DNA of 64,000 bases, taken from Candidatus Hydrogenedentota bacterium (GTDB taxonomy: Bacteria; Hydrogenedentota; Hydrogenedentia; Hydrogenedentales; JAGMZX01). Where the stretch lies: contig JAKQEQ010000019.1 of NCBI GenBank assembly GCA_029556545.1, positions 62,001-126,000 of the forward strand. The letters are read 5' to 3'. Below, piece after piece: positions 24,371-30,220 of this stretch (position 1 is its first letter; the number at the start of each line of letters is the position of its first letter). The notes below the pieces were generated by a model, which saw nothing but the letters and a program-made list of their open reading frames with translations, made no database searches and was not told the origin of the DNA. Position numbers and translations under genes: made by a program.

Positions 24371-25663
24371 CTACGCGCGAAACTCCGCGGGCAACTCATA
24401 TCCCTCGCGATACGTGCGCCCCAGCAGCGCGGTCGCCTCGGCGTCGCCGACGCATTCGCACCGGTCCTCGTCAAACACAACGCGCCGCTGTACCCGCGTC
24501 GCGATATTCCCCAGATGACAAAGCGCGGACGACACGACGCCTTCCCTTATCGGCGCTTGCAGTTTCGTCGGGTCGTTCGCCTTGACGCAATCAAGGAAGT
24601 TGCGCACGTGCGCGTCCTTGTCCGCGCCTCCGCCGAGGGGTTTCTTCTCCTCGCCGATCAACGTGACTTCACAGCCGCCTCGCCCGATATCGAGCGTGCC
24701 CTTGTCGCCATAGAAAATCACGCCGTTGTCGTGGCCGTCCATCGGGTAATCCGTCCACAGGCGCATCTCGAAGACCAGATAGGCGTCGTCATACTCGTAA
24801 GTGACCAATTGCGTGTCCGGCGTCTCGTGGTCGTCATCGTAGTAAAGCTGCCCGCCCGCCGCCGTCACCGCCTTCGGCAATCCCGCGCCCAGTCCCCAGC
24901 GCGCCTGGTCAATCTGATGAATGCCGTCATTCGCGATGTCGCCGCAGCCGTAGTCCCAGAACCAGTGCCACTGGTAGTGCCAGCGGTTCTTCGTGAAGGG
25001 CCGCTTCGGCGCGGGGCCCAGCCACATGTCGTAGTTGACGTTCGGCGGCGGGTCGGTCTCCGGCTCGCGCCCGATGGCCCCGCGCAATTGATGATTTATC
25101 GCCTTCGCGAGGCGCACCTTGCCCAGGCCGCCGTCCCGCAAGAACGCCACGGCCTCCCGGATGCCGCCGCTGCTTCTGCCCTGCGTGCCGTGTTGTACGC
25201 ACTTGCCGTGCTTCTTCGCCGCCGCCTCGATCGCGTAGCCCTCGCGGATGTTGTGCGAACACGGCTTCTCGACATACACGTGCTTGCCCGCCTGCAACGC
25301 GAGAATGGCCAGCAGCGTGTGCCAGTGGTCGGGCGTCGCGATGCTGACGCTGTCCACCTCCGGGTCGTCGAGTATCACGCGAAAATCGTCGAGCAATCGC
25401 GTCCGCGCCGGCTCGCGCAGTTCCCGCGTGATGCGCACCCGGCGCTCCGGGTCCACGTCGCAGATGGCGACAATTTCGCAGTCCGAGAATGCGCCAAAGG
25501 CTTGCGTGTGTCGTTTCCCCTGATTGCCCGCGCCGATGATGGCATGACGCACCCGTTCGCTGGGCGCAGCCTTTGCCCCGCGCGCCCCCGCCGCCAACAG
25601 CCCCGAGGCGACAAGCGCCTTGCCCGTGCTTCGCAGAAACTCCTTGCGCGATAACCCGCTCAT
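24371..25663 (-). CDS. Tat-type exported Gfo/Idh/MocA oxidoreductase
   Basis: A 430-residue dehydrogenase starting with a Tat-like leader, SRKEFLRSTG, then a hydrophobic stretch to about residue 33 (RK instead of RR). The Rossmann motif is HAIIGAGNQGKRH, the catalytic lysine is in YVEKPCSHN, and WHWFWDYGCGDIANDGIHQID is the C-terminal-domain motif typical of exported Gfo/Idh/MocA proteins of planctomycete-like bacteria. Some such enzymes oxidise glycosides. ATG 25663 is used. It is divergent from the isomerase-like gene at 25861 across a 197-bp gap that probably holds both promoters. Confidence 0.85.
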   Translation of the reverse strand: MSGLSRKEFLRSTGKALVASGLLAAGARGAKAAPSERVRHAIIGAGNQGKRHTQAFGAFSDCEIVAICDVDPERRVRITRELREPARTRLLDDFRVILDDPEVDSVSIATPDHWHTLLAILALQAGKHVYVEKPCSHNIREGYAIEAAAKKHGKCVQHGTQGRSSGGIREAVAFLRDGGLGKVRLAKAINHQLRGAIGREPETDPPPNVNYDMWLGPAPKRPFTKNRWHYQWHWFWDYGCGDIANDGIHQIDQARWGLGAGLPKAVTAAGGQLYYDDDHETPDTQLVTYEYDDAYLVFEMRLWTDYPMDGHDNGVIFYGDKGTLDIGRGGCEVTLIGEEKKPLGGGADKDAHVRNFLDCVKANDPTKLQAPIREGVVSSALCHLGNIATRVQRRVVFDEDRCECVGDAEATALLGRTYREGYELPAEFRA

Positions 25664-25860
25664 GACGCCTTCCTTTCGGTTAAACCCACCTGCCGTATGA
25701 TAAGCCAACGCGCGCCGAATACGAAATTCACTGTGACGTGTTTTTCCCGTGCCGGAGATGTGCTATCGTAGCCGCGAGTCCCGTCTCCGCGCACCGGGCG
25801 CGCCGACGGTGCTCATGGGAACCGGTACGCAGCCGCGCACGGCGCGGGGGAGTAGTCGTC

Positions 25861-27441
25861 ATGCACGATCACAAGCATCATTTGGGGTGTTGCGGGTGTC
25901 ACTTGGAGCCGATGAAGCGGCGCACGTTTCTGGCCGCGCTCGGTGGAACCGCCGCGAGCGCCGCCGCGGTAAGCGGCTGCGCCACGACGGGCGCGCGGCG
26001 CGCTCCCGTCGCCGCGGCGCGCGGCGAAGCCCGTATACGCCCCACGCGCCCGCGCAAGACCCTGGTGGTGCAGCCCGCGCTGGCGTATCACCTGTTCCAC
26101 CGCCACGAACAGACGAGTTGGCGGCCCTGGGGCGGCCTGCACACCGAGGACGACGTGCAACAGGAGATCGCGCGCATCGACGGGGAGTTGAAAGCCCTGA
26201 AAGCACGCACGGAATTCCCCGTCGAGTTCCGGTCCGTCGCGCGCGTGACGAATAAGGCGGAAGCCGTGGTCCTGCGCGACGGCGACGCGGACGTGATGCT
26301 GGTCTACGCCGCGACCGGCGGTCTCGACGAAATCGAGACGCTGCTTTCGCCGGACCGGCGCAACCTGGTCTTCGTGCGCCACGAATCCGGCCCCGTGTAT
26401 CTGTGGTACGAGATTGCCCATCCCCGTCTCCTGCGGAAAACCGTGGACGAGTACGGCCAGCCCGGCCTCGAACCCGCCGACGTCGTCGTGGACGAACCCG
26501 CTGACCTGCTCTGGCGGTTACGGTCTTTTTACGCGCTGAAAAACACCGTCGGCTCTCGGATCGTCTGTATCGGCGGCGCAAGCGGTTGGGGCGAGGGCGG
26601 CCAGGTCGCGCCGCAAGTAGCCGCCGAACTCTGGAAGATGGAACTGATCGACGAGCCTTACGAAGACCTGGGAAAGCGCATTGTCGCCGCGCGCAACGAC
26701 CCCGATCGCGTGGCTCGCGCCGAGGCTGCGACCGACGCCTACCTGGACCTGCCCGGGACCAAACTCGAAACGGACCGCGGCTTCATCGCGCGCGCGTTCC
26801 TGCTCACCGAGATTTTCGAGGACCTCATGGAGGAGATGAACGCTCCGGCCATCACCGTCAACCATTGCATGGGCACCATCATGCCGCTGTCCGAGACAAC
26901 GGCCTGCATGCCCCTCACCTTCATCAACGACGATGGCGGCATGGCCTTCTGCGAGTCGGATTTCGCCGTGATCCCGTCCGGCATCCTCTTACACCACATC
27001 GCGCAGACGCCCGTGTTCCTGCAAGACCCGACCTATCCGCATCACGGCATAGTCACGGTCGCCCACTGCACCGCGCCGCGCAAGATGGACGGAAAAACCC
27101 TCGAAAAAGTGCGGATTCTTACCCATTTCGAGTCCGATTATGGCGCGGCCCCGAAAGTCGATATGCGACTCGGCCAGACCATCACCATGATCGACCCGGA
27201 CTTCGCGGACAAACGGTGGATCGGCTTTCGCGGCACGATCAAGGCCAACCCGTTCCTCGATATCTGCCGCTCCCAGATTGACGTGGCCATCGAGGGCGAC
27301 TGCCATCGACTCGCCGAGGAAATGCGCGGTTTCCACTGGATGCTCGCCTATGGCGACCACCTGAAGGAAACGGGCTACGCCCTGCGCAAACTCGGCATCG
27401 GCTGGTACAACCTCTCCGACGACCGCACCATCGAGGCGTAG
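25861..27441 (+). CDS. Tat/lipobox-bearing FucI/AraA-like sugar isomerase-family protein
   Basis: A 526-residue protein. After a His/Cys-rich leader (MHDHKHHLGCCGCH) comes a Tat motif KRRTFLAALGG and a lipobox-like VSGC, suggesting a membrane-anchored lipoprotein. The C-terminal half fits the L-fucose/L-arabinose isomerase fold: CESDFAVIPSGILLHHI, VFLQDPTYPHHG and VAHCTAPRKM supply the Glu, Asp and His expected at the metal site. ATG 25861 follows GGGGGAG; ATG 25912, just before the Tat motif, is an alternative without the His/Cys leader. The gene opens a three-gene unit (stop 27441, next start 27447). Isomerases of this fold are normally cytoplasmic, so export is remarkable. The substrate is unknown. 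Confidence 0.7.
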   Translation: MHDHKHHLGCCGCHLEPMKRRTFLAALGGTAASAAAVSGCATTGARRAPVAAARGEARIRPTRPRKTLVVQPALAYHLFHRHEQTSWRPWGGLHTEDDVQQEIARIDGELKALKARTEFPVEFRSVARVTNKAEAVVLRDGDADVMLVYAATGGLDEIETLLSPDRRNLVFVRHESGPVYLWYEIAHPRLLRKTVDEYGQPGLEPADVVVDEPADLLWRLRSFYALKNTVGSRIVCIGGASGWGEGGQVAPQVAAELWKMELIDEPYEDLGKRIVAARNDPDRVARAEAATDAYLDLPGTKLETDRGFIARAFLLTEIFEDLMEEMNAPAITVNHCMGTIMPLSETTACMPLTFINDDGGMAFCESDFAVIPSGILLHHIAQTPVFLQDPTYPHHGIVTVAHCTAPRKMDGKTLEKVRILTHFESDYGAAPKVDMRLGQTITMIDPDFADKRWIGFRGTIKANPFLDICRSQIDVAIEGDCHRLAEEMRGFHWMLAYGDHLKETGYALRKLGIGWYNLSDDRTIEA

Positions 27442-27446
27442 CGGCC

Positions 27447-28934
27447 ATGCTCAACGTGGGGTTCATTGGCTGCGGCAGGATCGCGGACCTGCATGCGCGG
27501 GGCTACGAAAACAACCCGGACGCGCGCATCTACGCGCTATGCGACAACGACGCGGACCGGCTCGCCGCCCGCGTGAGCGCGTGGGGCGCGGATCGCGCCT
27601 ATCGCGACTACCGCGAGTTGCTGGCGGACCCGAACGTGGACGCCGTCGAGGTACTGGTTCCCTACGATCTGCACGAGGAGGTCGTCGTCGCGGCACTGCG
27701 CGCGGGCAAGCACGTCGCCTGTCAGAAGCCGATGACGACCAGCCTCGCCAGCGCGGACCGCATGATCGCCGCCGCGCGCCGGGCCGGGGTGCTCTTCAAG
27801 GTGACGGAAATCTACGTCACCTATCCGCCCATCGCGTTTGCGAAGAAACTCATCGACGACGGCGCCATCGGCGAACCCGTCGGCATGCGCATCAACTACA
27901 TTGCCAGTCCCAAGGGCGGCTGGAGAGTCGAGGCGCATACCTACGAGCAGCAGGTCCGCATCGCCGCACAAGGGTTCGGCCTCGAAACCTTCGACCACGG
28001 CCACCACGAGTGGGCCGCGGCCTGGTATCTGCTCGGTGAGGCGGAACGGGTTGCCGCGTGGATCGACTCGCTCAACGGCGTGGTCGACGGCCCAGCCACA
28101 GCCATGTGGAAGTGCCGCGGTAATAAGCGCTACGGCGTCATCGACTTTATGTTCGCGCCAGACCTGCACATTCCGACCAAATACTACTCGAACGACGAGT
28201 TGTACCAGATTGTCGGGTCGAAGGGCGTCATCTTCATCCATCGCGGCACGGGCGAAATGATGGACCGGCCCCCGGTCAGCCTTTTCGACGGTCACAAATG
28301 GACGCATTTCGAAGACGTCGCCGGCGACTGGGGCTTGGGCTTCGTCCACTCCACGCACAACTTCATCCGCGCGGTCCGGGGCGTCGAGAGACCGCTGCTC
28401 ACGGCGGACGAGGGCCGGGAAGTGCTGCGTTTCGCCCTGGCGGTGATGAAGGCGGCCCGTTTGCGCCGGGAAGTCTACCTGGACGAGTTGGAGCGCCCCC
28501 TGCCGTGGTTGTACTACCAGTGGCGCCGCCTGCGCGAACGTCGCGACTGCGTTGTCCGCCCGAAGCGGAAGTCCCGCTGGGGCGCGCGGCTCGCGAAGTA
28601 CGCCCCGCAAGCGCACGATCTCACCCTCGGCCTGAAGGACCGCTTCGACGGCGCGGCGGCGGGCGACTGGGCTTGCCTCATCGCACTGCATCTGGTGGGG
28701 GAGGGCGGTGTCGCGGACGAACACTTCGCGTTCGACATCAAGGACGGTCACCTTGACGTACGGCCCGGCGAGTTTCCGTTGAGCGCCGACCTGACCCTGC
28801 ACATTCCCGCCGGCGTGTGGGCCGCGATGATCCTCGGCAAGAAGCGCATCGAGGCGGCGGTATTACAGGGCTTGATCAAGTACGACGGCGTCGTCGAGAA
28901 GGCGCTGCCGCTGCGCGACGCCTTCAAACTGTGA
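27447..28934 (+). CDS. Gfo/Idh/MocA oxidoreductase fused to an SCP2-like domain
   Basis: A 495-residue protein. Residues 1-340 are a complete Gfo/Idh/MocA dehydrogenase: VGFIGCGRIADLHARGY Rossmann loop, VLVPYDLHEEVVV, catalytic lysine in ACQKPMTTS, and GLETFDHGHHEWAAAWYLLG in the substrate domain. After a basic linker (about 350-395) the last 100 residues resemble an SCP2 sterol-carrier fold: VADEHFAFDIKDGHLDVRPG, then DLTLHIPAGVWAAMILGKK and a closing helix. I know of no such pairing as standard. It starts five bases after the isomerase-like gene and overlaps the transporter start (GTGA), so all three are one transcript. Confidence 0.78.
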   Translation: MLNVGFIGCGRIADLHARGYENNPDARIYALCDNDADRLAARVSAWGADRAYRDYRELLADPNVDAVEVLVPYDLHEEVVVAALRAGKHVACQKPMTTSLASADRMIAAARRAGVLFKVTEIYVTYPPIAFAKKLIDDGAIGEPVGMRINYIASPKGGWRVEAHTYEQQVRIAAQGFGLETFDHGHHEWAAAWYLLGEAERVAAWIDSLNGVVDGPATAMWKCRGNKRYGVIDFMFAPDLHIPTKYYSNDELYQIVGSKGVIFIHRGTGEMMDRPPVSLFDGHKWTHFEDVAGDWGLGFVHSTHNFIRAVRGVERPLLTADEGREVLRFALAVMKAARLRREVYLDELERPLPWLYYQWRRLRERRDCVVRPKRKSRWGARLAKYAPQAHDLTLGLKDRFDGAAAGDWACLIALHLVGEGGVADEHFAFDIKDGHLDVRPGEFPLSADLTLHIPAGVWAAMILGKKRIEAAVLQGLIKYDGVVEKALPLRDAFKL

Positions 28935-30220
28935 GCGCGCCCGCCGTGCCGCCGCGCCAGCGGGTCTTCTACGGAATGGGGGGCCTGACGGTCGTACTCC
29001 CCGACCTTGTCATCATGCAGTGGCTCCTGGTGCGCTACCTTCCCGCCGACGGACCGCCCCTCGTTACCCCCGCCGTCTTCGGGACGCTGGTGTTGCTCGG
29101 GCGGCTTGTCGAGGGCGTAGCCAACCCGCTGGTCGGGCATTGGAGCGACGTGTGCCGGCACCGCTGGGGGAGGCGCATGCCCTTTCTGCGACTCGGCATC
29201 CTCCCGTTCGTCCTTGCGTTCTTCCTGCTGTTTCATCCGCCGGTGGGGGAGACGCATTGGCTGAACGCGGTCTACGCGGCAGGGCTGCTCGTCGCCTACT
29301 TCACGCTGTTCGCCGCCGTCGGCACACCCTATCTGGCGCTCATGCCCGAGATCAGCGCCAGTTCCCGCGAACGCGTCGACCTCATGACCATTCAATCTGT
29401 CTTCATGATGCTGGGCACCTTCGTATTCGCCGGCGCGGGCGCGCTGCGCGACTATTGCGGCTGGACCGCCATGGCCGGGATGATCGCCCTCCTGGCGGCC
29501 GTGTTCCTCCTGCCTACGATCGCGACCACCAAGGAACGATCCGGATCCGCCGCCGCAAGTACCCCTTTCGGCCTGCGGCGATCCGTCGGCCTCACCCTGC
29601 GCAATCGCCCGTTTCGCTATGTCGTGGCCGCCACGTCCGTCTACTGGTTCGGACTCAGCGGGATGCTGGCGCTGATCCCCATGTGGGTCCGCGTCGGGCT
29701 TTCCGGACGAGACTCCGATGTCACCCTGCTCATGATTCCCTACCTGCTGATGAACCTCGCGTTCTTCTTCGTGTTCAACGCCCTGTCCCGCCGTTTCGGC
29801 AAGTATCCGCTCATGCTGGCCGCCTTTCTCGGGACGGCGCTCGTGGTCGCGCTGTTCCCCTTCGTGGGCCGGTTCCCGCTGGGAAGCCCCTTCCTGCAAA
29901 CCGCGATCCTCTTGACCGCCGCGGGCGCGCCCGTGGCCGGATTCGTGGTCTTGCCCTACGTTGTGCTGGCTGACGTCGTGGACGACGACGCGCGGACCAC
30001 CGGCAGACGACGCGAGGCCGTCTTCTTCGGCACGCAAGGCATCTTTCAGAAAGTCGGCATCGGTCTAGCCACTATGGCGTTTGCGGTCGTGCCCTACCTC
30101 GGCGGCGACGGTCACGCAATGACGCCGGCCGGCCTGAAGGTCATGGCGCTCTTCTGCGCGCTGGCCGGCCTCGTTGCGTTCTTGATATTCCTCGGTTATC
30201 CTCTGCGCGAAACCGAGTAG
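28931..30220 (+). CDS. GPH-type MFS sugar:cation symporter
   Basis: A 429-residue transporter with about twelve helices. The N-terminal half shows LVEGVANPLVGHWSDVCRHRWGRRMPFL, cut here as GHWSDVCRHRWGRRMPF, the MelB/GPH signature between helices 2 and 3, and a second-half ADVVDDDARTTGRRREAVFFG loop. GPH carriers bring glycosides, pentosides or hexuronides into the cell with Na+ or H+. The GTG at 28931 overlaps the previous stop by four bases. Its position suggests import of the sugar handled by the two upstream enzymes. Confidence 0.88.
   Translation: MSAPAVPPRQRVFYGMGGLTVVLPDLVIMQWLLVRYLPADGPPLVTPAVFGTLVLLGRLVEGVANPLVGHWSDVCRHRWGRRMPFLRLGILPFVLAFFLLFHPPVGETHWLNAVYAAGLLVAYFTLFAAVGTPYLALMPEISASSRERVDLMTIQSVFMMLGTFVFAGAGALRDYCGWTAMAGMIALLAAVFLLPTIATTKERSGSAAASTPFGLRRSVGLTLRNRPFRYVVAATSVYWFGLSGMLALIPMWVRVGLSGRDSDVTLLMIPYLLMNLAFFFVFNALSRRFGKYPLMLAAFLGTALVVALFPFVGRFPLGSPFLQTAILLTAAGAPVAGFVVLPYVVLADVVDDDARTTGRRREAVFFGTQGIFQKVGIGLATMAFAVVPYLGGDGHAMTPAGLKVMALFCALAGLVAFLIFLGYPLRETE

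Follow-up and report, generated by a model that had tools for sequence, protein, structure and literature searches.

A Gfo/Idh/MocA dehydrogenase fused to an SCP2 domain in Hydrogenedentota, and the transporter gene that adjoins it

Characterised enzymes of the Gfo/Idh/MocA class work for the most part on small polar molecules such as soluble sugars and cyclitols. In a contig of a Candidatus Hydrogenedentota bacterium (JAKQEQ010000019.1), within the 64,000-nucleotide stretch analysed here (the window), one open reading frame joins an enzyme of this class to a sterol carrier protein 2 (SCP2) domain. We asked how well this architecture is supported, how widely it occurs, and on what kind of substrate a dehydrogenase built in this way might act.

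Domain structure of the fusion protein

The fusion gene (27447–28934, plus strand) comprises 495 codons, with an ATG at 27447 and a TGA at 28932–28934, so that the coordinates of the 495-aa protein include the stop. From the open reading frame, Pfam matches and an AlphaFold model, the layout of the protein is a complete Gfo/Idh/MocA oxidoreductase (residues 1–349), a basic linker (350–384) and an SCP2 domain (385–495). The Rossmann NAD-binding domain (residues 1–119; 27447–27803) matches PF01408 over residues 2–119 (5.5e-28, 98.5 bits vs. a cut-off of 24) and contains a GCGRIA motif, an Asp33 that ends strand 2, and a QKP motif with Lys94; Asp33 suggests a preference for NAD. The C-terminal alpha/beta substrate domain (residues 131–343; 27837–28475), which carries Asp183 and His187, matches PF02894 over residues 133–343 (1.7e-8, 35 bits vs. 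a cut-off of 22.9) and PF22725 (7.2e-8). Lys94, Asp183 and His187 are invariant in all 14 members aligned, and in 14 of 14 members compared QKP replaces the EKP usual in Gfo/Idh/MocA proteins (Glu to Gln). The protein is predicted to be an NAD(P)-dependent dehydrogenase.

The SCP2 domain (28599–28931) matches PF02036 over residues 411–493 with 25.4 bits, above the gathering score of 21.3, and the C-terminal 115 aa taken alone reach 29.4 bits. A profile built from the linker and SCP2 part of fused proteins only aligned to stand-alone bacterial SCP2 proteins with an hhalign probability of 98.5%, and its best match among PDB sequences was mammalian SCP2 (E = 1e-4). An AlphaFold run with eight close rows modelled the middle part poorly, and a 64-row alignment was used instead (mean pLDDT 93.2, pTM 0.79); in the SCP2 part of this model pLDDT ranges from 81 to 97 per ten-residue block, and the predicted order of strands and helices is that expected of SCP2. 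The best 50 Foldseek matches of the model all fall on the Gfo/Idh/MocA part, led by TM_0414 (3ezy; target TM-score 0.86), and no solved structure among them spans both domains. An earlier note, made from the window sequence, had assigned the protein to Gfo/Idh/MocA plus SCP2, and this assignment is borne out: PF01408, PF02894 and PF02036 all exceed their curated cut-offs, PF02036 also does so in all five other fused homologues scanned (23.6, 44.5, 36.2, 47.2 and 28.8 bits), and the C-terminal region is confidently modelled with an SCP2-like topology. The boundary it gave, residue 395, lies about ten residues too far downstream, the domain starting nearer to residue 385.

The linker (28494–28598) has a net charge of +11 and several aromatic residues. 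Its basic character is conserved: the segment carries +4 to +11 in 14 of 14 fused proteins, vs. −9 to +8 for the total proteins, and in 13 of the 14 the most basic stretch of 30 residues lies within it. The hydrophobic moment gave no support for an amphipathic helix here, and that reading was set aside; charge is the supported feature. With its basic and aromatic composition, the linker would fit a role in contacting the surface of an anionic membrane.

Distribution and history of the fusion

With the linker and SCP2 part as query, the fusion was found in 12 of 68 Hydrogenedentota genomes; among the first eight fused Hydrogenedentota proteins aligned, identity to the window protein was 57–83%. 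The closest named matches come nearly all from Hydrogenedentota MAGs. Beyond Hydrogenedentota, samples of other bacteria contained it in G195, G331 and G388, in G322 and in G418, and it is also present on a short contig (L023) of a MAG labelled Deltaproteobacteria. No match turned up in phage records; those in plasmid records were partial, covered the Gfo part alone and so represent unfused relatives. Two further candidates, L043 and L195, were rejected: each is a seemingly stand-alone SCP2 gene with an open frame running in from upstream. Large open frames around SCP2 matches also occur in G444, G282, G255, G294 and others, and the check covered L043 and L195.

Four of the 12 genomes (G001, G015, G021 and G060) encode an unfused paralogue in addition to the fusion (52–56% identical). 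The unfused paralogues of Hydrogenedentota stop where the linker would start, and a Pfam scan found no SCP2 domain in an unfused paralogue. When the catalytic parts were placed in a tree with 29 other Gfo proteins, the fused and unfused sequences grouped in a single clade (100/100) that includes none of the 29, and the unfused Hydrogenedentota paralogues (99/99) are placed among the fused proteins. Given this nesting, the simplest reading of the tree is an old fusion followed by loss of the SCP2 domain in the unfused paralogues; a single fused clade was not rejected by the AU test (p = 0.133). Genomes that contain both forms offer a natural control for the contribution of the SCP2 domain.

Neighbouring genes and the putative transporter substrate

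Directly downstream of the fusion gene lies a GPH/MFS_2 transporter gene (28931–30220, plus strand; PF13347, 7.6e-47). It starts with GTG, and its first 4 nt (GTGA, 28931–28934) are also the last 4 nt of the fusion gene, TGA stop included; the two genes likewise overlap by 4 nt in G001. This linkage is recurrent. The transporter gene adjoins the fusion in four Hydrogenedentota genomes, with adjacent orthologues in G015 and G042, and in another lineage (G195 and G331) an orthologue with 37% identity adjoins it on the upstream side; the next-best transporter paralogues in the genomes of the orthologue comparison are at most 32% identical. A different MFS_2 gene lies near the fusion on L023 and near an unfused Desulfobacterales relative (L029). 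The orthologue is present and unlinked to the fusion in G009, G021, G056, G060 and G388, and missing from four fused genomes (G038, G051, G053 and G057). Within Hydrogenedentota, 8 of the 12 genomes that encode the fusion have the orthologue, vs. 10 of the 56 that do not (p = 0.0015, a value that ignores relatedness). In the four genomes that lack the orthologue mnmG lies directly downstream of the fusion; we took this as lineage synteny.

Upstream, a gene for a Tat-like secreted protein (25912–27441, plus strand) ends 5 nt before the fusion gene. Searches of Pfam, NCBIfam and PDB sequences gave no match for this protein, and the gene was not found as a neighbour at other fusion loci. Further upstream, on the minus strand (24371–25708), the window encodes another Gfo/Idh/MocA protein, whose N-terminus is Tat-like; its top NCBIfam match is glycoside 3-dehydrogenase BT_2158 (159.9 bits vs. 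a cut-off of 750). In all, 59 stretches of the genome are related to the catalytic part of the fusion.

The unfused relatives have neighbours of their own. A divergent Gfo-like protein (L029:11095–12381) directly follows the unfused Desulfobacterales relative, and a second Gfo-like gene adjoins the unfused paralogue on L088 and L089, so that unfused members may work in pairs. The closest unfused relatives whose genes carry named annotation, in the alphaproteobacterium Labrenzia (~40% identity), belong to an apparently ordinary sugar/polyol operon; its other genes encode a sugar ABC transporter, a TPP enzyme, a semialdehyde dehydrogenase and a dihydroxy-acid dehydratase.

The GPH/MFS_2 family includes sugar importers as well as the lysolipid importer MFSD2A, a lysophosphatidylcholine symporter. 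The single window transporter sequence matches MelB only. A profile of the seven gene-adjacent transporters scored 130 bits against MFSD2A and 120 bits against MelB over their length, a small margin of 10 bits; a profile of 14 transporter orthologues gave 106.5 bits for MFSD2A and 79 bits for MelB, whereas a control of five unlinked paralogues of the GPH family, drawn from some of the same genomes, gave 95 and 101 bits, respectively. In MelB the sugar is bound by Asp19 and Asp124 (PMC8329300). The equivalent residues are Val and Gly in the window transporter, and none of the 14 orthologues has an Asp at either position. Since the sugar-site residues are conserved only within MelB orthologues (PMC8329300), their absence excludes a MelB-type site but not sugars in general.

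Gene context around the transporter orthologues is mixed. In G388 the gene that comes directly after the orthologue (L184:7927–10212) encodes a serine-palmitoyltransferase-like/SDR fusion, the SDR part of which resembles 3-ketodihydrosphingosine reductase; this protein could be a one-chain start of sphingoid-base synthesis. The copies in G009 and G021 lie near SIS_2, GH127 or FG-GAP genes. Three genomes have related aldehyde dehydrogenase genes (56–69% identity) next to the transporter orthologue or close to it (L082:17642–19001, L186:8078–9670 and L187:4729–6288). With a GPH/MFS_2 transporter adjoining a fusion that has a basic linker, the balance leans somewhat towards an amphipathic substrate.

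Possible function and closest known systems

Our best reading, which we hold tentatively and at somewhat less than even confidence, is that the fusion protein is an NAD(H) dehydrogenase associated with the membrane, and that it acts on the sugar moiety of an amphipathic glycoside brought into the cell. The transporter would import such a glycoside or a glycolipid, perhaps a lysoglycolipid, the SCP2 domain would take up the hydrophobic part of the substrate, and the basic aromatic linker would rest on the anionic membrane. The enzyme would be cytoplasmic and work at the inner membrane face, where its Lys94/Asp183/His187 site may oxidise a sugar or polyol hydroxyl, or reduce the matching ketone. 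Besides the domains, the invariant residues, the linker and the recurrent transporter linkage, the sphingoid-base-type genes next to the G388 transporter orthologue and the precedent of HSDL2 speak for this reading. The earlier proposal of a lipid-linked or hydrophobic glycoside as substrate is a candidate reading that gains support here from the coupled transporter with its profile slightly nearer to MFSD2A, the absent MelB aspartates and the linker; the unfused relatives in a sugar/polyol-type operon count against it. The same alphaproteobacterial operon weighs against our best reading, as do the four fused genomes without a transporter orthologue, the narrow MFSD2A margin together with the MelB-only match of the window transporter, and the SIS_2 and GH127 genes near other transporter copies.

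Much of this counter-evidence, namely the Labrenzia operon, the MelB-only match and the sugar-type genes near some transporter copies, would fit an ordinary soluble sugar or cyclitol dehydrogenase fed by a GPH sugar importer, with an SCP2 domain that no longer binds lipid and serves oligomerisation, stability or regulation. However, the SCP2 domain and linker have been retained across lineages while unfused paralogues exist alongside, and the sugar aspartates of MelB are missing from the transporter; we regard such an enzyme as rather unlikely, though it is the main rival. It appears improbable to us that the fusion is a dehydrogenase for non-sugar lipid alcohols or ketones (sterols, long-chain bases or similar), resembling HSDL2 on a Gfo/Idh/MocA core. 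The SCP2 domain, the precedent of HSDL2 (PMC11141617) and the sphingoid-type gene beside the G388 transporter orthologue would suit such an enzyme, but the nearest relatives of its catalytic part with solved structures use sugars, cyclitols and similar small polar compounds as substrates, and the G388 fusion gene itself lies away from those lipid genes. There is a negligible chance that an artefact of assembly or frame has joined two separate genes: the single-sequence Pfam score for SCP2 is modestly above its cut-off, but the same continuous frame in many separate assemblies and several lineages rules out a chance join, the model is confident, other fused homologues give independent SCP2 matches, and the fusion architecture as such is well supported.

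If the enzyme does act on the sugar part of an amphipathic glycoside, the locus might encode an uptake-and-oxidation route for glycolipids or lysoglycolipids that has not been described, in which an MFSD2A-like importer passes its cargo on to the Gfo/Idh/MocA-SCP2 enzyme resting on the membrane, and SCP2 grips the tail during oxidation of the headgroup sugar; we consider this full route unlikely. The conserved pair of fusion and GPH transporter makes glycolipid oxidation by the Gfo/Idh/MocA class directly testable.

The earlier note knew of no described example of the architecture. This still holds for the papers searched: a search on Gfo/Idh/MocA with SCP2 or sterol carrier protein returned nothing relevant and no paper on the combination, although domain databases may list the pairing. 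The closest known enzymes share one part or the other. Gfo/Idh/MocA enzymes such as TM_0414 (3ezy), levoglucosan dehydrogenase, scyllo-inositol dehydrogenase and DgpA have the same fold, Rossmann motif and Lys/Asp/His site; the fusion differs from them in having QKP for EKP, the basic linker and the SCP2 domain, and its scores fall well short of all NCBIfam equivalog cut-offs. In peroxisomal multifunctional enzyme type 2 and in SCPx, SCP2 is carried by an enzyme of lipid metabolism, and their SCP2 domains are among the PDB matches of a mixed SCP2 profile, but their catalytic parts, a dehydrogenase/hydratase and a thiolase, are unrelated to that of the fusion. Alkyl sulfatases of the SdsA1/Pisa1 type have an SCP2-like C-terminal domain and appear through PDB matches and a weak PF14864 match that is below cut-off in the fusion; their catalytic part is a metallo-beta-lactamase. 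HSDL2 pairs NAD(P) dehydrogenase activity with SCP2 at the C-terminus, as the fusion is predicted to do, and it binds sterol derivatives and fatty acids (PMC11141617); its catalytic part, however, is an SDR, whereas Pfam found no SDR family in the catalytic part of the fusion and PF01408 and PF02894 instead. The window transporter has PF13347 in common with MelB and MFSD2A, and the gene-adjacent profile aligns over the lengths of both; it differs from MelB in lacking Asp at positions 19 and 124, and it scores below the NCBIfam gph cut-off (121 vs. 231 bits). Taken together, the recurrence of the Gfo/Idh/MocA-SCP2 pairing in several bacterial lineages, with an importer gene adjoining it, suggests an undescribed uptake and oxidation of a fatty or lipid-linked sugar.
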